The notes beneath the pieces are model-generated. The model saw nothing but the letters and a program-made list of their open reading frames with translations, ran no database searches and was not told the DNA's origin. Of a stretch of DNA of 32,444 nt, positions 21,696-32,444 are shown piece by piece. This stretch comes from Lujinxingiaceae bacterium. Lineage in GTDB: Bacteria > Myxococcota_A > Bradymonadia > Bradymonadales > Bradymonadaceae. Both the position numbers and the translations under genes were made by a program. Location of the stretch: assembly GCA_013697635.1 (NCBI GenBank), contig JACCWM010000052.1, forward strand, positions 1-32,444. Direction: 5' to 3'. How positions within the stretch are numbered: position 1 is the first letter of the stretch; each line of letters starts with the position of its first letter.

Positions 21696-23102
21696 ATGCA
21701 AGGCAGCTCGCTTCCCATCATCAAGACCGCCATACCCGGCCCACGCTCGGTTGAGCTCGTCGACGAGCTCAGCCGCACCGAGTGCCCCGCGATCACGGCG
21801 CGACGCGCGCGCCGCACGCTCGAGAGCGGCGTTCCCCAGGATCCGATCGTCTGGCACAAGGCCAAAGGCGCAAACGTCGAGGACGTCGACGGCAACGTCT
21901 ACGTCGACCTGACAGCGGCCTTCGCCGTCGCCGGCCTTGGCCACGGCCACCCCCGCGTTCTGGCCGCAGCCCACGCCCAGCTCGACCAGCTCGTGCACGC
22001 CATGGGCGACGTCTATCCAAGCGACCAGAAGATCGCCTTTTGCAAGCGCCTGGCCGAGCTCACGCCCGCAGATCTCCAGCAATCGATCCTCGGGCTCTCC
22101 GGCTCGGACGCCGTCGAAGCCGCCCTAAAGACCGCCGCCATTCACACCGGACGCCCCGGCATCATCGCCTTCTGGGGCGGATACCACGGCCTCTCCTACG
22201 GCGCGCTCGCGGCCACCAGCTACCGCAACAGCTTTCGAAAGCCCTTCATCGCCCAGCTCAACCCCCATGTTCGCCACATCCCCTATCCCGATCTCTACCG
22301 CCCGCCCTTTGGTCTTGCACACAGCGCCACCCCGACCGAGATCTCCAACGCCTGCCTGGCTCACCTGCGCGCCATGCTCAGCTCGCCGGCCACCGGCAGC
22401 GAGGAGATCGGCGCCCTGATCATCGAGCCCATCCAGGGGCGCGGCGGCGAGGTGGTACCACCGTCGGGCTTTTTGGCCGGGCTGCGCGCGCTGTGCGACG
22501 AATTTGGTCTGGTCCTGATCTTCGACGAGATTTTTAGCGGCTTTGGCCGCACCGGAGCGATGTTCGCCTGCGATCACGAGTGCGTCGTGCCCGACATCTT
22601 GTGCGTCGGCAAGGGCATGGCCGGCGGCTTTCCCCTCTCAGCCGCCATCGGAAAACCCCAGATCATGGCCTCCTGGGGCCTCTCGTCGGGCGAGTCGATC
22701 CACACCTCGACCTTCCTCGGAAACCCTTTGGGCTGCGCCATGGCCCTCGCTGTGCTCGACGTGCTCGTCGAAGAGAACTGGCCAAGACGCGTCGCCATCC
22801 TTGGCGACGTCCTGCTCGCACGCCTTCAAAAGCTCCAGAGCCGCTTCCCCGACTTGATTGGCGAGGTCCGCGGCCGCGGCCTCATGCTCGGCATCGATCT
22901 TGTCATCGATCCCGCCACGCGTGCGCCGCATCCCAACCTCGCCATCGAGCTCATGGATCACTGCCGCAGCCGCGGCTACCTCGTCTTGCCCAGCGGAATC
23001 CACGGCAACGTGCTCGCCATCTCACCGCCCTTTGTCATCACCGACGCCCAGCTCGACGGCTTCTTCACCGTCTTGGAAGAGGGGCTCGCCCGCCATCCCT
23101 AG
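21696..23102 (+). CDS. Class III (aspartate aminotransferase family) PLP-dependent aminotransferase, 468 aa
   Basis: This is a fold-type I aminotransferase of the acetylornithine/4-aminobutyrate group, moving an amino group from an omega-amine to a keto acid. The glycine loop GLSGSDAVEAALKTA, the motif FWGGYHGLSYGALA, the acidic pair IFDEIFSGFGRTG and the PLP lysine Lys306 in VGKGMAGGFPLSAA are all visible. TSTFLGNPLGCAMALAVL marks the phosphate-binding segment. Length (468) is a little above GabT (about 430 aa). The substrate cannot be assigned; 4-aminobutyrate, ornithine and diaminobutyrate are all compatible with the motifs. Its stop overlaps the stop of the convergent gene by four bases. 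Confidence 0.92.
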   Translation: MQGSSLPIIKTAIPGPRSVELVDELSRTECPAITARRARRTLESGVPQDPIVWHKAKGANVEDVDGNVYVDLTAAFAVAGLGHGHPRVLAAAHAQLDQLVHAMGDVYPSDQKIAFCKRLAELTPADLQQSILGLSGSDAVEAALKTAAIHTGRPGIIAFWGGYHGLSYGALAATSYRNSFRKPFIAQLNPHVRHIPYPDLYRPPFGLAHSATPTEISNACLAHLRAMLSSPATGSEEIGALIIEPIQGRGGEVVPPSGFLAGLRALCDEFGLVLIFDEIFSGFGRTGAMFACDHECVVPDILCVGKGMAGGFPLSAAIGKPQIMASWGLSSGESIHTSTFLGNPLGCAMALAVLDVLVEENWPRRVAILGDVLLARLQKLQSRFPDLIGEVRGRGLMLGIDLVIDPATRAPHPNLAIELMDHCRSRGYLVLPSGIHGNVLAISPPFVITDAQLDGFFTVLEEGLARHP

Positions 23103-23713
23103 CTGCGCTGAGAAATCTCGCGTGCGATCATCAGCAACGGCGACGCCACGTTGACCGGCAACTCCTCATCGGTCACCGCGACCAGCGCCGGCTCAACAGG
23201 CTCAAAACCGCTCGCCTCGCGTGCCGTGACCTTGGTCTGCACCACGAAGTTGCCCTCTTCGCCGGCGATCACCAGCCAGACGGGCCAGGGGGTGTCCTTC
23301 TTGGATCCGGTCGAAAGAATCTCGGCCGGAACGCTGTTCGCAAAAATCGACACCCTCGGCTTGGAGAGCGCGCGCACGACCTGGCCGTCTTCGCGCCAGA
23401 GGAACTCGTCGTCGCTGAGCACGATCTCGCGCACGACCTCCTGGCGGTAGTGGGTCTGCAGCTTGAAAAACGGCCGCATGAAGTAAAAGAGCACGGTCCA
23501 AGTCGTGATCACGATCAGCGAAAAGACCAGCGCCATCACCGGCTCGTTGACCACGCCCTGGTGGGCGCGAAGGGCGGCAAAAGCGACGACGGCCGCGCCC
23601 CCGGCAAGTCCCATGCGCAAGGGATGCTCGGAGAGCTGTCGAAGCAGCGCGCCGGCCGGGCCGGTGCGCGGCTTCTGCACGATCGTTCGGTAGGAGATGT
23701 GTACGTCGGACAT
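23099..23713 (-). CDS. Hypothetical membrane protein, 204 aa
   Basis: No known family recognised. Two hydrophobic segments (GLAGGAAVVAFAALRA and PVMALVFSLIVITTWTVLFYF) are followed by a soluble C-terminal half of about 110 residues. That half holds a PH-like pattern of beta strands (EIVLSDDEFLWRE, PWPVWLVIAGEEGNFVVQTKV). The ATG at 23713 is preferred because it gives a compact N-terminus. It would be an inner-membrane protein with a cytosolic domain. It is convergent with the aminotransferase gene and divergent from the KAS III gene. Confidence 0.72.
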   Translation of the reverse strand: MSDVHISYRTIVQKPRTGPAGALLRQLSEHPLRMGLAGGAAVVAFAALRAHQGVVNEPVMALVFSLIVITTWTVLFYFMRPFFKLQTHYRQEVVREIVLSDDEFLWREDGQVVRALSKPRVSIFANSVPAEILSTGSKKDTPWPVWLVIAGEEGNFVVQTKVTAREASGFEPVEPALVAVTDEELPVNVASPLLMIAREISQRS

Positions 23714-23882
23714 GGTCTGCCTTGGCTCGAGCGCTCGGGCTCTTGAATGCGCTGGCAGTCCATAGTCCAACGCGCTTGCTGTGGTCAACGCCCGCGACGT
23801 GAAAACGGTCGTGGCTTGCACGCCCTCAACGCGCTATAGTTGTTTTATCTACCCGCACCAATTTTCTCCTTGGCCATTCACC

Positions 23883-24872
23883 ATGCCTAGCATCATCACA
23901 GGAACCGGGCATCATGTGCCCTCGCGCTGCGTCACCAACGACGAGATCGCCGCGCTCGTGGGCTCGTCGAGCGCATGGATCGAGGAGCGAAGCGGCATCT
24001 GCCAGCGCTATTTCGTTGGCGACGGCGAGTCTAATGCGAGTATTGCAGCCGTGGCGGCGCGCCGTGCGCTCGAGGACGCCGGCCTCGAGGCCAGCGATCT
24101 CGACGCGATCGTCTATGCAACCTTGTCGCCGGACATGGCCTTTCCAGGCAGCGGCGTGTTTATGCAGCGCGAGCTGGGCCTGAACAACATCCCCGCGCTC
24201 GACGTTCGCGCCCAGTGCTCGGGTTTCATTTACGCGCTCTCGGTGGCCCACGCCTGGCTCGTCGCCGGCATGTACGAGCGCGTGCTCGTCGTCGGCAGTG
24301 AGGTGCACTCCACGGGCCTGGACCTCTCGCAGGCCGGGCGCGCGGTGGCCGTGCTCTTTGGCGACGGCGCGGGAGCAGTCATCCTGGAGCGCAGCGAAGG
24401 GAAGGGCGCGGGCATCATCGACATTCGCCTGGGCGCTGACGGATCGGGCGCCCATCTGCTTCGCTGCGAGCGGCCCGGCTCGCGCTACTCCCCGAGCATC
24501 GACTATTCCGCCCTCGACGACGGCCTGCATTTCCCACAGATGGAGGGCCGCAGCGTCTTTCGCCGCGCGGTCGAGATGCTCGAGCGCGAGCTCGCGGCCT
24601 TGTTTGCCCGAAACCAGCTTGCGCTCGACGACATTTTGCTCGTACCCCACCAATCCAATCAGCGCATCAACGAGCTCGTCGGCGCGCGCCTTGGCCTTCG
24701 ACCCGACCAGATCGTGCACACCATCGCCTCGTTTGGAAACACGACCGCCGCCAGCATCCCAATGGCCCTCGACATCGCCCGCCGAGACGGCCGCGCCCAG
24801 CCCGGGCGCCTGATCGCCCTGGCGGCCTTTGGCAGCGGCCTGACCTGGGGCACGGCCCTGCTCGAAGTCTAG
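23883..24872 (+). CDS. fabH: 3-oxoacyl-ACP synthase III (KAS III/FabH-like), 329 aa
   Basis: KAS III condenses an acyl-CoA with malonyl-ACP to start fatty-acid synthesis. The catalytic triad is complete: Cys112 in AQCSGF, His256 in PHQSNQRI and Asn286 in GNTTAAS. The N-terminus SIITGTGHHVPSRCVTNDEI is typical. The ATG at 23883 sets Cys112 at the position found in E. coli FabH. No fabD/fabG/acpP neighbours are present, so this may be a secondary or specialised copy, for example for branched-chain starters or another thiolase-fold reaction. The symbol reflects family rather than proven function. Its stop is 4 bp from the stop of the convergent membrane-protein gene. Confidence 0.9.
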   Translation: MPSIITGTGHHVPSRCVTNDEIAALVGSSSAWIEERSGICQRYFVGDGESNASIAAVAARRALEDAGLEASDLDAIVYATLSPDMAFPGSGVFMQRELGLNNIPALDVRAQCSGFIYALSVAHAWLVAGMYERVLVVGSEVHSTGLDLSQAGRAVAVLFGDGAGAVILERSEGKGAGIIDIRLGADGSGAHLLRCERPGSRYSPSIDYSALDDGLHFPQMEGRSVFRRAVEMLERELAALFARNQLALDDILLVPHQSNQRINELVGARLGLRPDQIVHTIASFGNTTAASIPMALDIARRDGRAQPGRLIALAAFGSGLTWGTALLEV

Positions 24873-24876
24873 AGCC

Positions 24877-26652
24877 CTAAAAGCCTACCAGCACCGCCGT
24901 TCCGACCGACACGCCAAGGGCCTTGGCAGCGTGGTTCGACCCATCGACAAGGCAATTGTCGTCGCTGACAAAGCGCTCGCGCGCGCGCGCCACATGCAGC
25001 TCGATCCCGATGGTTCCATCCCATGCGCTCGATTGGCCCTCGCGCACGCGCCGAGTCTCACCTCGAAACGACGCTTCCAACTCCAGGCCGCGCTCAACGT
25101 CCATGCAGCTATCGAGCGCCGGCTCGCAGCCCTGACGAGGCCGCGCCAGCAAGCTGATCCCCAGATCCTGAGGCAGCCCGACGCCCCGCACCAGATGCAG
25201 CGATCCGAGGCCGACGATGCGCTCCTCGACGACCCGCTGCAGCTCGATTCGCAGCGCAAAATAAGGCCGATTCGAGCTCACCGCCGAGCCCTCTTCGCGA
25301 AAGCTCACGCGCGCTTGCTCATTACCGGTCGGCCAAAGCGGCGCCAGGACGGCCTCGGGCGCGCAGACTCGCACGCTCGAGCTTTGCGCGCCAAAGAGCG
25401 ATGCGAGCTGCAACAAACTGCAGCCGTCTTCGCCTTCCTCGAGCGCTTGCACGGTCCACTCACCGCTTGGCGGCCGATCCCAGTCCACACCGGCGTTGCT
25501 CGTCGGTCCAAAACAGCCCTGCGACGCGCCTTCGAGAGGACCCGCACCCGCCGGCCGCTCCCGATGCAGCGGCTCGGAATGCTGTGACCACCAACGATAC
25601 ACCGTCCCCGCCGGCGGACTCGACGCCACCAAAAACTCCTCCTCGCTGCAGTCCTCGGCAAAGTAGCAAGGCCGATTGCGCCACTCATGCAGCGGACCGC
25701 TCGCGCCGGCGTAGTCGGCGTCGAGCACCACGGTCTGCGCATCGGGCATGACGTCGCGCGGTATGTTGACGTCACCCAAGACGTCTTTGTAGGCGAGCTG
25801 ATCGTCCCAGATCACGAACACCTCGCCGGCCTTGTCACTTTGCACGAGCGCCACCTTGCACGTGTGCCCCGAGACACCATCCCGATCGCGGCCGTAGTAC
25901 AGATCGACGGCGATCTCCTGGCCGGACATCATCCGCTCGACCGCCGCATTGCCAAAATGCTCGTCGGCCAGATAAGCCGCCGGATTCTCCCGCACGGCCC
26001 CACAATCGAGTATGAATTCTTCGCGCAAATAGCGAACCCGCAGCACCTGGATCTCGTTTGTGCGGTTGAAAATCGAAACCCGCGCGCTCGCCGTCCACCC
26101 CACATTAGCGCCATCGTGAATCGGCTCGCCCGTCGCCATACACGCGATCGATCCGACGATCACTGCCACACACGCCAGCCGACGCCGCGTCCGCTCACCC
26201 ATCGAAGGCCAGGGCGAGCACATACGCGGATAAAGCACGATCAATCCCAACGCAATCATCGGCAACGCCACCAGATCCGTAGCATCCGGCGTCGTATGAA
26301 ACCCGAACAAGAAACCGCTCGCCACCCCATCCCAAAGCCTTGCCAACCCCGCCGACAGGTTGATCCCCGCAAACACCACCCCCACCGCCACCCCGCAGCC
26401 CACCAGCCCCCTGCGAGAGCGAACCCGCAACAAAGCCGCCAGCAGCACCGGCGCCAAAAAGAGCCCGGCAAAATCGCTCAGCTTCCCCGTCACCAGACCG
26501 GCATACACGCTGTGCTTGAAGAGATGATCGTTGAGCACGAGCAGCGCCAGCGCACCCAGCCAGGCCGGATGCAACAAAGCCCGCAACGGCTCGATACGAG
26601 GCGCGGCGGGCTCTGTGAAATAATTCTCGCGGGCGTGTGAAATCTTGGTCAT
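24877..26652 (-). CDS. Hypothetical membrane protein with NDHLFK/GKLSDFAGLF N-terminus, 591 aa
   Basis: The function is unknown. Residues 25-180 contain about five hydrophobic helices with the conserved-looking motif LNDHLFKHSVYAGLVTGKLSDFAGLFLAP. I associate this motif with uncharacterised Myxococcota-type proteins. The rest (about 185-591) is predicted extracytoplasmic, with scattered Cys residues (CYFAEDC, GCFGPTS, RQGCEPALDSC) that could form disulfides. The last 17 residues are again mildly hydrophobic. Its ATG lies 39 bp after the stop of the precursor-peptide gene on the same strand, with no terminator between. It could therefore be transcribed with the RiPP genes, although nothing in its sequence suggests a role in peptide maturation. 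It is clearly more GC-rich than the RiPP genes. Confidence 0.78.
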   Translation of the reverse strand: MTKISHARENYFTEPAAPRIEPLRALLHPAWLGALALLVLNDHLFKHSVYAGLVTGKLSDFAGLFLAPVLLAALLRVRSRRGLVGCGVAVGVVFAGINLSAGLARLWDGVASGFLFGFHTTPDATDLVALPMIALGLIVLYPRMCSPWPSMGERTRRRLACVAVIVGSIACMATGEPIHDGANVGWTASARVSIFNRTNEIQVLRVRYLREEFILDCGAVRENPAAYLADEHFGNAAVERMMSGQEIAVDLYYGRDRDGVSGHTCKVALVQSDKAGEVFVIWDDQLAYKDVLGDVNIPRDVMPDAQTVVLDADYAGASGPLHEWRNRPCYFAEDCSEEEFLVASSPPAGTVYRWWSQHSEPLHRERPAGAGPLEGASQGCFGPTSNAGVDWDRPPSGEWTVQALEEGEDGCSLLQLASLFGAQSSSVRVCAPEAVLAPLWPTGNEQARVSFREEGSAVSSNRPYFALRIELQRVVEERIVGLGSLHLVRGVGLPQDLGISLLARPRQGCEPALDSCMDVERGLELEASFRGETRRVREGQSSAWDGTIGIELHVARARERFVSDDNCLVDGSNHAAKALGVSVGTAVLVGF

Positions 26653-26691: not shown

Positions 26692-26880
26692 TCAGTCGTC
26701 GTCCGAAGGGATTTGGCGAAGAAAGTCTCCGCCACTTCCATAGCCACCGGCGATGATCTGTGAAAGTTTCCCATGGTGACAAAGCACGGGTTTTTGATAC
26801 GGCAGCCTCATGATTGTCCGAGTTTCTTTTACGTCTTTGGTAGCAATGTTGTTGTTCACATGAGCAACTTTGGCATTCAT
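26692..26880 (-). CDS. Putative lasso-type RiPP precursor peptide, 62 aa
   Basis: The peptide has a leader with Y-x2-P-x-L-x3-G (YQKPVLCHHGKL, about residues 28-39). This is the motif used by lasso leaders to bind the RRE protein. A Gly-rich C-terminus follows: GGYGSGGDFLRQIPSDDD. If the core starts at the first Gly, Asp8 could form an 8-residue macrolactam ring with Gly1, with tail FLRQIPSDDD. Starting at the second Gly gives a 7-residue ring. The usual Thr at position -2 of the leader is Ile (or Ala with the second choice), a real deviation. ATG 26880 is chosen because GAGGA lies 5 bases upstream; ATG 26811 (39 aa) lacks a good site. The cyclase gene ends 174 bp upstream on the same strand. 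Confidence 0.75.
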   Translation of the reverse strand: MNAKVAHVNNNIATKDVKETRTIMRLPYQKPVLCHHGKLSQIIAGGYGSGGDFLRQIPSDDD

Positions 26881-26956
26881 TTGCTTCCTCATACTGCATA
26901 TTGGGGCCCAGGCATAATAGTTCAGCATAATGCTTTGGCCGAGGTTCACGCCGCTC

Positions 26957-26984
26957 AGTGTAACAGATCCAACTCCATTGACAA
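26957..26984 (-). promoter_or_regulatory. Candidate sigma-70-type promoter for the precursor gene
   Basis: On the minus strand TTGTCA (26984-26979) and TACACT (26962-26957) are spaced by 16 bases, close to TTGACA and TATAAT. This would start a transcript near 26950 with a leader of about 70 nt before the ATG at 26880. It would let the precursor be made in excess of the cyclase, as is common in RiPP loci. The match is by eye only. Confidence 0.4.
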
Positions 26985-27054
26985 GTGGACTGCTTCAGCC
27001 GATGCCGCTGGTTGCGGCCTTCCGACAAGTGCCGAACCCCCCTATAAATTTGTG

Positions 27055-28884
27055 TTATAGGGAAACCCATTGCTCGGCGGCGACCGTATTCCAGATATCG
27101 ATGGAGCCAACGAACCATTTGTTCTGAGTGCGGTTCGTGGCCTGGCAATACTTGCGGTAAGCCGATCGAAAAGCCGCCGGTTGGATGACCCCGGCTGCAG
27201 CGAGCCTACCCCCAGCGACCAGATTCTCAACGCGATGAATCTCTCGATCCCCAAGTCCACGTTCGATCAGAGCGTCGAAGCCACCAAATTTGCGATGACT
27301 GAGCACCGAATCGGGGAGAACTCCGCGGAGCAAGGATCTCAACAATCCCTTCTGGCGACCATTTAAGAACAAGTTTTCGGGAGGAATACGCAGACAGATC
27401 TCCCAGAGCTGCGCATCAAGAAATGGATAAACCGTCCGCAAGTTCGATGCACGCGCGATTTGTGCGCTGGCCCGGCATGCTAACTCCCATTGCCATCCCC
27501 GCAAGACCTCGAGCCGAGCACAACCCCAGTCTTGATATGAGAGGTAGGTGCTTGGGTTGCGTGCAAAGTACTCCTTGTCGCCTATCCACCGGCCCGGCTG
27601 AGTCCAAATGGCATGGCTAGAAGTGCCGTTGGGCCGATTCAGCCCGCAGACGTCCCGTATTCGGTGGACCGGCTCGATCAGGCCGTTTTTCTCAAGTACT
27701 ACGATCCCTCCTTGTCGAAGCGCCGTTCGAAGGCCTTTTTTCTTGGCGAGCCAATGCAATCCAATCCCGGGTCGATTATGGATCATTCTTCGCTCCCATA
27801 AAGTCCGAGGGCAGCAAAAGAGGTCGTCGCCTCCATGGCCATTGATCAGGGTTGTTTCACCGAGGAATTCTCGAGTCCATCGTTGGAACGCGATCAAACA
27901 CTGCATATGTGCAATCGGCGTCGGACCTTCTTCCCATCGCGAATCGGTGGTCACATCTCGACCGTTCAGCGGCCAATGCTCGCCGATTGGAAATCGATGG
28001 ACGCGAAGTGGAAGACTTGCTTCCAATTCGTCGATTGCCTGGCTCTCGTCACAACGCGGCAGGTCCGGGGCCACCATGGAAGCTGCGGCAATGACCGCTC
28101 GGCTATGAGGCGACCCCAATTTGCTCAGCAATCCAGCAAGAGTCGCTGAATCGACGCCGCCACTGAGCTGAACGGTGTGCGGTTGCGTCGAGACCCTCTG
28201 TAAAATGTGGGTCAGTCGGCCCACGATCTTTTCCGAAACATCGACGTCTGCTTCGTCATAGGAAGTGTCGGGTTGCCAATAGTAGCTCTTTGTCTGGGCG
28301 AGCTCCGCAGTCCAGGACACCTCCTCGCCAGGACGAATGCGATGAAGACCCTTCACAAAGTCGTCGGTATCACAATCGGAACTCCGCGACATGAAGGCAA
28401 CCAGACGCCTTGGATTGACCTCAGAACGTTCTTCCCGCAGCCGGCACAGCCAATGGGAATCGGTCGAAACCAAAACCTGTGTTTGCGTTCGGGCGAAAAA
28501 CAGTGGAACTAACCCTAATTTATCTCGAAACGCGAAAAGCCTACGACGCTTGGGATCCCATACGATGCCGGCGAGGATCCCATCACACCGCTGCAGGGCT
28601 TGAGTGCCCCAGCGTTGCCATGCTGCGGCCAATGTCTCAGCTACGTTCTTGCCACAAGGCTCGCCAAGTTGCTGAGCCACAACGGAAGGGTTATTCCATT
28701 GGCCAACCCAGGCCACATGAAGGGAGCCGTTTCGGAAAATTCCACCGTCTCGGGGTTCTGTCGCTGAACAAAAGGCCATGCGCAACACACAGCCTCCCAG
28801 CTCGACCGCGATTTCGGTGGTGTCGAGCGTTGCGTGAGATAGCGGGCTGGTTTTGTGCCCCAACGCTGCGATAAAGTCTGCCAA
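27055..28884 (-). CDS. Asparagine-synthetase-like lasso peptide cyclase (McjC-like), 609 aa
   Basis: Lasso cyclases adenylate an Asp/Glu side chain in the core and close the lactam with the N-terminal amine. The N-terminal part (about 40-190) resembles the glutaminase domain (RDKLGLVPLFFARTQTQVLVSTDSHWLC). It lacks the catalytic N-terminal Cys, so ammonia release from glutamine is unlikely. The synthetase domain has the pyrophosphate loop SGGVDS at 241-246, NGHGGDDLFC, and the late motifs YPFLDAQLWEICLRIPPE and GRQKGLLRSLLRGVLP. The start is taken as TTG 28884, 5 codons after an in-frame stop; no ATG is available before the domain. Base composition is lower in GC than flanking genes. A beta-lactam synthetase-like or other amide-forming RiPP enzyme is the main alternative. 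Confidence 0.83.
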   Translation of the reverse strand: MADFIAALGHKTSPLSHATLDTTEIAVELGGCVLRMAFCSATEPRDGGIFRNGSLHVAWVGQWNNPSVVAQQLGEPCGKNVAETLAAAWQRWGTQALQRCDGILAGIVWDPKRRRLFAFRDKLGLVPLFFARTQTQVLVSTDSHWLCRLREERSEVNPRRLVAFMSRSSDCDTDDFVKGLHRIRPGEEVSWTAELAQTKSYYWQPDTSYDEADVDVSEKIVGRLTHILQRVSTQPHTVQLSGGVDSATLAGLLSKLGSPHSRAVIAAASMVAPDLPRCDESQAIDELEASLPLRVHRFPIGEHWPLNGRDVTTDSRWEEGPTPIAHMQCLIAFQRWTREFLGETTLINGHGGDDLFCCPRTLWERRMIHNRPGIGLHWLAKKKGLRTALRQGGIVVLEKNGLIEPVHRIRDVCGLNRPNGTSSHAIWTQPGRWIGDKEYFARNPSTYLSYQDWGCARLEVLRGWQWELACRASAQIARASNLRTVYPFLDAQLWEICLRIPPENLFLNGRQKGLLRSLLRGVLPDSVLSHRKFGGFDALIERGLGDREIHRVENLVAGGRLAAAGVIQPAAFRSAYRKYCQATNRTQNKWFVGSIDIWNTVAAEQWVSL

Positions 28885-29063: not shown

Positions 29064-32000
29064 ATGTTCAGTCCTATGAAGTCACGGTGGGCCCACAGTG
29101 CCCTGTGTTTGTTGCTTCTCGTCTTGGCCGTCGGTTGTTCGTCGGAGGTCAAGCCACCAGTCTCCGACCAGAGTCCAGCGTCCCAGCAAGGCTTTGATGA
29201 AGATAACCATCATACGCCCCAGCATGCCGCGCCTCCAAATGGAAAGCTCGAAAGGGCGGATTGGCATCGCTCCTTCGATCGACGAAACGGGTATTCAAGC
29301 GCCACGGTTTTGGCTCTCGGAAATGTGAAAATCGCCGATTCGGGCTCGCTCAAAATTGCCCCGACGCCAGCCTTTGATTCCGAAGGGCGCGAAGTATCGC
29401 CTTCATGGCAGTATGAAACCCACCTTGCCAGTGTCTGGCGAGGGGATAATCAATTCGAGTTTTCCGACGCCGCGATCGAACGCGATATTGAGGGGTCGCG
29501 TCACACCTCACGTTATACGCGTGGTGTTGAAGTGCTTTATGACCATGTGTCAAACGGCCTAAAACAATCGATCGTCCTGGCCGAAAAACCGGTGGGAGCA
29601 GGGCAATTACGTATTCGTTTCGACGTCATCGGGGATATCTCATTGGAGATGGTGGACGACGGCGAGCGCATCAACGTGATTCATGCGAACGAGGTCATTT
29701 TCGCATGGACGGAGTTATTCGTACATGATTCAGCACACGAGCCTTTGGCCGCGTCAATGCGTGTTGACGGCCAATCGATCGTTTTCGATGTCGACGATGC
29801 TCGCGCAAGCTATCCCATCACCATCGATCCGCTGGCCAGCGACCCGAGCTTGGGCGACATTTCTGGCGACGGTTCGGGTGCTCGGTTCGGGATTCGGGTT
29901 TCAAGCGCCGGCGACGTCAACGGAGACGGCTTTGACGACATTATTGTTGGCGAAAGTCGCTATTCAGTCGGCCTGGATCAGCGAGGCCGAGCCTTGATCT
30001 TTTTGGGTTCCGAGTCCGGCATTTCCAGTACCGCGGCTTGGACGACGATTGGAGCCACGTTCCAAGAACTGCTGGGCACGGCTTTGGACACGGCGGGAGA
30101 CCTCAGCGGAAACGGGTGTGATGACATCCTCGTTGGAAGCCCTTCATGGTGGGGACCATCGGCGGCGTCAAGTGATTTTGCTCGAGGACGTGTGCAACTC
30201 TTTTCATTCAATGAGTGCGGCCTGCCTGGAGACACGCTGACTACAGTTTCGGTGTTTGAGGCAAGAGGCGAGATTGGCGGCAATAACTTTGGGCGCGCAG
30301 TGGCCAATGCCGGAGACTTCAATTGCGACGGCACTCCAGATATTCTGATCGGAGCCTTCGGCCACTCAGCAGGGGCGGGCAAGATCTACGTCTACTTTGG
30401 AGCCACGGGCACAAATCCCTTCTTAAATCCTCCGTGGACGTTTTCTTCTCCCAATACGGGAGCTCAGTTGGGTTGGGCTGTGGCCGGTGCTGGAAACGTC
30501 AACGGCGCAATGCACGACGACAATGGAACGCTGCGATCATGTGACGACATCCTGGTCGGTGGCCCTGCATTCAATGGAAATCGCGGCATCGTCCATCTGC
30601 TATTAGGAGCAAACCCCACTCCCAGCGCCACGTCCGCGTGGTCAATCTCGGGGGTGGTTGCCGGCGATCGACTGGGCTCAGCGTTAAGTGGCGGAGACGT
30701 CAACGGCGACGGATTCAACGATATCGTCATTGGCGTGCCCCGCCACGCCAACTCACTCGGGCGCGTGAAGGTATACATGGGCACGGATGCCGTCGATGGC
30801 GACGGCAAGCCGGTCTTCAGCGAATTTCGGGACATTGATGGTCCTGCGGTCGAATCCCGGTTCGGAACTGCGCTCAGCGCCAAAGGTGATTTCAATGCTG
30901 ACGGATTTGCCGATGTTGTTGTCGGCGCACCGTTCTTCGACACATCAAAGGGGCGCGTCGACGTCTATCTGGGTTCTCCAAGCGGCCTCACCAACGAGCC
31001 AATATGGACCACGATTTCCAACGTCTCCAATTCAGAGTACGGCTCGAGTCTCGCCGCAGCGGCTGATGTAAACCGGGTTGCTGGCGAGGTCTCTTATAGC
31101 GATCTCGTGGTTGGGGCATACGCCGACAACAATGTTGGACGGATTTATGTCTATCCAGGCCAGCCCAATTGCTACATCGAAGGCGAAAATGATGAGTTTG
31201 CCTTCTACGCCAATGGCGTCGTTAATCCAGAGAGCGAGTGCCAAATTTGCGACGTGACCAGCAGCCGAACGCAGTGGAGCGTGCGAACCAATGGCACCTC
31301 CTGTGGAGGAACGTGTTTTGATGGCCAGTGCAACGACGATGGACTATGCGAGGGCGGACCTGTGGTCTGCTATGATGGATGTCATTTTGGGGACTGCGGT
31401 GAGGCCACTGGATGCACCTTTGATCCTACCAACGATCCGAACGAATGCAGCGCGCCGCCCTGCACGGGCAATGGTGACTGCAGCGATGGCAACGTGTGCA
31501 CTGCCGATATTTGCGACTTGGATACGGAGCGCTGCGTTTTTGACCCCCTTCCGGCCACGGCCTCGTGCACCAGTGACGGAGTGAGTTGCACGGTCAATCA
31601 TTGCGACGGCGCGGGAAGTTGTGTGGCAACGGTGCCGACCGGCTGCTACATCAACAACGCCTGCTACATTGAGGGTGCTCTCAACCCAGACAACAGTTGC
31701 CAGTCTTGTCAGGCAGCATCCGACCCGAGGAATTGGACAAATCGAAGCTCAGGCTTGAGTTGTGATGATGGAGACTATTGCACCGTCAACAATCAATGTG
31801 ACGGTAACGGAACCTGCAGTGCAGGAGTCGCCCGAGTTTGTAGCGTCCCCGAATGTTTCGCCAGCTCTGTTTGTAATTCCGTGGCGCGCTCTTGCCAGCC
31901 TCAAGGCATCCTGGCCAATGCAACCCCATGCGATGAAAGCAACAATTGTACTGAAAGGACATGCCAAAGTGGAACGTGCACCGGTCCCAACGTCGACTGC

Positions 32001-32444
32001 AACGACGGTCTGGCTTGCACGACCAACAACTGCACCCCAGCCACGGGCTGCCAGCCGCCTGTCATCACCGACGGCTGCGTGATCGGCAACGCCTGTTATG
32101 CCAACGGCGCCACCAATTCGGCCAACGATTGTGAGGAGTGCAATACGGCGCTCTCGAACACGGGCTGGTCGGCAAAATCTCCGACGGCGGCATGCGACGA
32201 CGGCAACCTGTGTACCGTCGGCAGCATGTGTTTGAACCGCGTCTGCCTCCCTGGTACGCTCAAGGACTGCTCGGCTGCCGGCGATCAATGCAACACGGGC
32301 ACCTGCAACGCAACCGACGGCTCCTGTGCGCCACAGCCCGCCAATGAGAACGGCGGCTGTGACGACGGCAATCTTTGCACGGTCAACAACGTCTGCCAGG
32401 GCGGCAGTTGCTCGGTCGGCACACTGCGCGACTGCTCGGCGGGC
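29064..32444 (+). CDS. FG-GAP propeller, Cys-rich repeat lipoprotein (partial, runs off the window)
   Basis: The frame is open from ATG 29064 to the last base, giving at least 1127 residues. The signal sequence ends in a lipobox-like AVGC (Cys25), so it is a probable lipoprotein. Residues about 60-270 are an unassigned beta-rich domain. Seven FG-GAP/calcium-binding repeats follow (about 280-700): GDVNGDGFDDIIVG, GDLSGNGCDDILVG, GDFNCDGTPDILIG, a longer irregular fourth, GDVNGDGFNDIVIG, GDFNADGFADVVVG and ADVN...DLVVG. They are consistent with an integrin-like seven-bladed propeller. From Cys703 on, a Cys every 5-15 residues forms repeats such as C-x2-G-x-C-x-D-x-N-x-C, continuing past the window. 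Such proteins are usually surface-exposed adhesins or structural proteins; function is unknown. An alternative start is ATG 29076. Confidence 0.88.
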   Translation, partial: MFSPMKSRWAHSALCLLLLVLAVGCSSEVKPPVSDQSPASQQGFDEDNHHTPQHAAPPNGKLERADWHRSFDRRNGYSSATVLALGNVKIADSGSLKIAPTPAFDSEGREVSPSWQYETHLASVWRGDNQFEFSDAAIERDIEGSRHTSRYTRGVEVLYDHVSNGLKQSIVLAEKPVGAGQLRIRFDVIGDISLEMVDDGERINVIHANEVIFAWTELFVHDSAHEPLAASMRVDGQSIVFDVDDARASYPITIDPLASDPSLGDISGDGSGARFGIRVSSAGDVNGDGFDDIIVGESRYSVGLDQRGRALIFLGSESGISSTAAWTTIGATFQELLGTALDTAGDLSGNGCDDILVGSPSWWGPSAASSDFARGRVQLFSFNECGLPGDTLTTVSVFEARGEIGGNNFGRAVANAGDFNCDGTPDILIGAFGHSAGAGKIYVYFGATGTNPFLNPPWTFSSPNTGAQLGWAVAGAGNVNGAMHDDNGTLRSCDDILVGGPAFNGNRGIVHLLLGANPTPSATSAWSISGVVAGDRLGSALSGGDVNGDGFNDIVIGVPRHANSLGRVKVYMGTDAVDGDGKPVFSEFRDIDGPAVESRFGTALSAKGDFNADGFADVVVGAPFFDTSKGRVDVYLGSPSGLTNEPIWTTISNVSNSEYGSSLAAAADVNRVAGEVSYSDLVVGAYADNNVGRIYVYPGQPNCYIEGENDEFAFYANGVVNPESECQICDVTSSRTQWSVRTNGTSCGGTCFDGQCNDDGLCEGGPVVCYDGCHFGDCGEATGCTFDPTNDPNECSAPPCTGNGDCSDGNVCTADICDLDTERCVFDPLPATASCTSDGVSCTVNHCDGAGSCVATVPTGCYINNACYIEGALNPDNSCQSCQAASDPRNWTNRSSGLSCDDGDYCTVNNQCDGNGTCSAGVARVCSVPECFASSVCNSVARSCQPQGILANATPCDESNNCTERTCQSGTCTGPNVDCNDGLACTTNNCTPATGCQPPVITDGCVIGNACYANGATNSANDCEECNTALSNTGWSAKSPTAACDDGNLCTVGSMCLNRVCLPGTLKDCSAAGDQCNTGTCNATDGSCAPQPANENGGCDDGNLCTVNNVCQGGSCSVGTLRDCSAG

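Follow-up and report, generated by a model that had tools for sequence, protein, structure and literature searches.

A lasso peptide locus of a Lujinxingiaceae bacterium as a probable bsf-type cluster, rearranged and severed by a contig end

The window, i.e. the whole analysed stretch of 32,444 nucleotides, most probably carries a rearranged lasso peptide cluster of the bsf type (Bradymonadales) severed by the contig end, a reading of the sequence to which a probability of about 90% was assigned. The window corresponds to contig C117 in full, and its last position, 32444, lies inside a gene. A previous sequence-only reading had proposed a minimal lasso locus without the RRE protein (B1) and the protease (B2). 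The absence of both from the window was correctly stated, yet the window is a whole contig ending inside a gene. B1 and B2 seemed missing because this contig is broken inside a tandem repeat, and both were found on the contig predicted to continue it, C84. The features of the two contigs are as follows (positions refer to the window unless C84 is named).

21696-24872: syntenic left flank with an aminotransferase gene (plus strand), a DUF gene and a KAS III-like gene
23099-23821, minus strand: DUF gene
23781-24872, plus strand: KAS III-like gene
24877-26652, minus strand: 591-aa gene (W591), conserved neighbour of the lasso locus and left border of the putatively inverted FG-C-A block
26692-26880, minus strand: lasso precursor A, 62 aa, identified by leader and ring motif, precursor profile and alignment
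26692-26694, minus strand: stop codon of precursor A
26695-26748, minus strand: predicted core GGYGSGGDFLRQIPSDDD of precursor A, with a predicted Gly1-Asp8 ring
26749-26880, minus strand: leader of precursor A with YQKPVLCHHG and Ile at -2
27055-28884, minus strand: asparagine-synthetase-like lasso cyclase C, 609 aa, SGGVDS, no N-terminal Cys
29064-32444, plus strand: FG-GAP/Cys-rich lipoprotein gene, 5' part, truncated where the contig ends
32387-32444, plus strand: assembly break, the last 58 nt of C117, 100% identical to array units of C84
C84 1-2016 (G000): 3' part of the FG-GAP/Cys-rich gene; Cys-rich, PKD domains, C-terminal anchor
C84 2045-2458: B1 (RRE), PqqD 4.4e-14, above the curated cut-off
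C84 2316-3425 (ORF): K, HPr-kinase-like, Hpr_kinase_C 5.1e-8
C84 3422-3862: B2, protease, Transglut_core3 1.9e-14, above the curated cut-off
C84 3859-4959: NT, nucleotidyltransferase, NTP_transf_5 5e-31
C84, after NT: rpsL, rpsG and fusA, in that order

The right end of C117 cuts the FG-GAP/Cys-rich gene within a 162-bp tandem repeat, and C84 opens inside a 162-bp tandem array matching this end. At a threshold of at least 87%, the repeat was detected in C84 only. In relatives, single FG-GAP proteins span both gene halves, the window half aligning to their N-terminal and the C84 half to their C-terminal part, and the left-hand genes of the window share one contig with the genes of C84. The fullest case among them was L059, where a single contig carries aminotransferase-DUF-KAS3-W591-FG-C-A-D-B1-K-B2-rpsL-rpsG-fusA, and the arrangements in L045, L054, L055, L074 and L075 were consistent with it. 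The 591-aa protein has no Pfam match; in L054, L059, L067 and L068 it is conserved next to either the cyclase or the FG-GAP gene. No suffix-prefix overlap was found between C117 and C84, C117 ending within repeat units, and the join was placed by synteny and repeat identity. Judged by these and by gene content, C84 is read as the direct continuation of C117.

A genome search for PqqD-like RRE and Transglut_core3 genes, which the sequence-only reading had recommended, located both on C84 in one row with the kinase and nucleotidyltransferase genes. The K protein fell just short of the Pfam cut-off (33.1 vs 33.3), yet its H-G-G-G-K-S-D-D motif was kept; these kinase residues and the catalytic Cys/His of B2 were found by direct reading of C84. 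Two further matches were rejected as lasso genes, i.e. a PqqD match on C15 belonging to a pqqBCDE operon and a Transglut_core3 match on C36 within a 522-aa protein located beside an ABC transporter without lasso genes. A truly minimal or decayed locus, which lost B1 and B2, would account for their absence between 21696 and 32444 and for the missing exporter gene D, but the adjoining contig C84 carries B1, K, B2 and NT in intact form, and C and A of the window are likewise intact with their motifs conserved, so that such a loss was considered very improbable. Nor was a chemistry differing from classical lasso maturation borne out, given B1 and B2 on C84. The removal of this false minimal locus illustrates how one can arise when a contig breaks off within a tandem repeat.

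The ABC exporter gene D, expected between A and B1, is absent from the window/C84 cluster. A genome-wide search for a D-type ortholog revealed generic ABC exporters only, the best of which was rejected as D (32% and 202 bits, whereas true D genes match one another at 39% and 366 bits). No exporter thus accounts for export of the peptide, which was counted against the bsf-type reading. The D gene is reportedly lacking in Microvenator according to the main text of PMC10368454, suggesting that it is not obligatory in clusters of this type.

The 62-aa form of the precursor starts with ATG at 26880, preceded by a Shine-Dalgarno-like GAGGA sequence. It possesses both the YxxPxL leader motif and the Gly1...Asp8 core, the latter compatible with an 8-residue ring. 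The leader/core boundary reads ...SQIIA|GGYG in the alignment (the cleavage being predicted), with Ile rather than Thr at position -2 of the leader. The strict leader and ring motif occurred once in the window and in 0/200 dinucleotide shuffles, which supported the earlier assignment of a 62-aa lasso precursor on the same strand as the cyclase. A precursor profile of 15 rows matched at two places only in the 6.2-Mb genome, the window ORF (1.3e-18) and contig C92. Since the window ORF is itself among the rows, its own score is not independent, whereas the scarcity of other matches is. Tyr and Pro of the leader, Gly1 and Asp8 were kept in 15/15 aligned precursors.

The cyclase described by the sequence-only reading (SGGVDS, no N-terminal Cys) was likewise confirmed, with a match to Asn_synthase PF00733 (4.9e-25) and an N-terminus reading MADF. 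The best NCBIfam model was the lasso cyclase NF033535 (8.6e-35), although the score of 120.4 bits was far under the curated cut-off of 525, a second point counted against the bsf-type reading. This low score, together with the Asn_synthase fold, might indicate an amidotransferase, such as a housekeeping asparagine synthetase, accompanied by a chance small ORF. The protein lacks the N-terminal Cys, however, and scored 108.6 bits with the AsnB equivalog TIGR01536, whose cut-off is 267.1; a separate strong Asn_synthase gene is present on C102, cyclase-precursor pairs recur in relatives and the precursor motif was not seen in shuffles. All of this leaves a housekeeping role with a negligible probability. 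The comparison of related genomes also showed that the order of cyclase before precursor, earlier regarded as less common, is the rule in this lineage.

The second match of the precursor profile corresponded to another cyclase-precursor locus on C92 (L040:6394-8692). Its cyclase is a paralogue of the window cyclase (37% identity) and is followed by a precursor with the core GASAKGVDSAGELDLATYPF, Ser3 and Val at -2, and the pair is situated between smc/P450 and a Ser/Thr-kinase/udk pair. The same smc-side arrangement was identified in L041, L042, L043, L044, L046, L050, L051 and L053. It is present in the isolate Lujinxingia vulgaris TMQ2 and conserved across the family, encompassing Lujinxingia and soda-lake MAGs. 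The smc-side core is conserved as GASxKGVDSxGELD...YP. No B1 or B2 gene was found near the smc-side loci.

In the cyclase tree, the window cyclase was sister to the C92 cyclase with a support of 99/97 (88/92 after removing long rows), and a single clade of the cyclases from the first, rpsL-side locus (locus 1) was rejected (p-AU 0.02). Because of this grouping with the C92 paralogue and not with the locus-1 cyclases, the C-A pair of the window may descend from the second locus. The tree includes long branches, those of the locus-1 cyclases being very long, and the pair is located at locus 1 with its FG-C adjacency retained. The grouping could accordingly be a tree artefact and the pair the original bsf locus-1 pair, merely diverged. 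The window cyclase shows ~30% identity or less to most cyclases other than that of C92, and this together with the support of 88-99% and the p-AU value renders simple divergence rather unlikely. The question concerns the origin of the pair only, as either descent is compatible with the bsf-type explanation.

The near-complete genome under study contains two precursor-cyclase pairs but a single lasso B1/K/B2 set, as does each of the near-complete Lujinxingia-type genomes G013, G016 and G018. With two pairs but one enzyme set per genome, B1, K and B2 probably act in trans, and the simplest and most likely inference from the sequences is that the C92 pair uses the set of the window cluster. The earlier suggestion of B functions provided by genes outside the locus suits C92 better than the window.

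Lasso genes were found at separate loci in other members of the class as well. In genus g2 (L057, L058, L076 and L077), the cyclase lies beside the FG-GAP gene and A-B1-K-B2-NT at another locus. In the sister family f5 (L141-L146, L049, L052 and L166-L177), A with D, C, B1 with K, and B2 occupy four separate places. The contigs that carry them differ and reach 101 kb, and three of the four places have recurring neighbours of their own; G046 still keeps B1, B2 and K together. The f5 precursors retain the leader motif, Gly1, Asp8 and Ile(-2). As the f5 genomes are drafts, some separations could stem from fragmentation, which is disfavoured by the recurring and differing neighbours of the pieces. 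Another apparent split was observed in L071 and L072 (G011 and G008), where the rpsL locus carries D-B1-K-B2 with no precursor or cyclase adjoining in the visible flank.

These data somewhat favour a genomically dispersed lasso biosynthesis in this class, with one RRE/kinase/protease set for two precursor-cyclase pairs whose loci are unlinked and vertically inherited, and with the sister-family pathway distributed over four loci. The strongly conserved, GA(S/T)xKGVDS-like smc-side core with Ser3 would suggest a conserved physiological peptide over a variable antibiotic, one that plays a part in how these predatory bacteria live. Cluster-based mining would call lasso systems with such unclustered core enzymes incomplete. 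The window locus belongs to a known kind of cluster that has been rearranged and was split in the assembly; greater novelty lies in the multi-locus organisation with shared enzymes. Maturation by a protease encoded elsewhere is known for lanthipeptides (PMC8960859), whereas here a whole RRE/kinase/protease set probably serves two unlinked lasso-type pairs. A literature search covering main texts found no precedent for split lasso pathways, and the second C-A locus (Lujinxingia L046, L050 and L051) is unmentioned in the main text of PMC10368454.

The closest known system is bsf of Bradymonas sediminis FA350, described in the main text of PMC10368454; the BsfA encoded by L045 was identical to the published one. 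The window/C84 cluster and bsf share the families C, A, B1, K, B2 and N, the flanking FG-GAP gene and rpsL-rpsG-fusA, and the YxxPxL leader with Ile(-2) and Gly1-Asp8. They differ in that FG-C-A is inverted in the window, so that the FG-GAP gene parts C-A from B1-K-B2-N, in the lack of D, in core Tyr3 in place of Ser3 and in a cyclase less close to bsfC than to that of the unlinked second locus. The Bradymonadales clusters pcy, mmv, llb, lss and lvt are alike in kind, some also without D or N (main text of PMC10368454).

The true gene order would be A< C< FG-GAP> (gap) B1> K> B2> NT> rpsL> rpsG> fusA>, derived by a putative inversion of the ancestral FG-C-A block and loss of the transporter D. 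B1 is predicted to bind the YxxPxL leader and B2, a Cys protease, to cut past Ile-Ala, before Gly1, after which C would close the Gly1-Asp8 ring with ATP around the tail FLRQIPSDDD, giving the putative product. According to the main text of PMC10368454, BsfB1, BsfB2 and BsfK were assayed in vitro, BsfB1 assisted both kinase and protease, and BsfB2 cleaved one residue past Ile(-2); the bsf cluster was silent and its mature product never detected. BsfK phosphorylated the core Ser3 of BsfA and did not phosphorylate BsfA S3Y (PMC10368454, main text). Since residue 3 of the window core is Tyr, not the Ser3 or Thr3 expected for phosphorylation by K, this precursor may be no substrate of the cluster kinase. 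Phosphorylation of residue 3 is a tailoring feature and no defining trait of a lasso peptide.

The FG-GAP gene was presumed unrelated to the bsf cluster in the main text of PMC10368454. The protein may be part of the lasso system as a receptor, immunity factor or anchor. This giant FG-GAP/Cys-rich/PKD gene (29064-32444 plus L005:1-2016) was the divergent neighbour of the cyclase in 12/14 of the non-smc cyclase loci seen, and it adjoined the cyclase even where the B genes had moved away.
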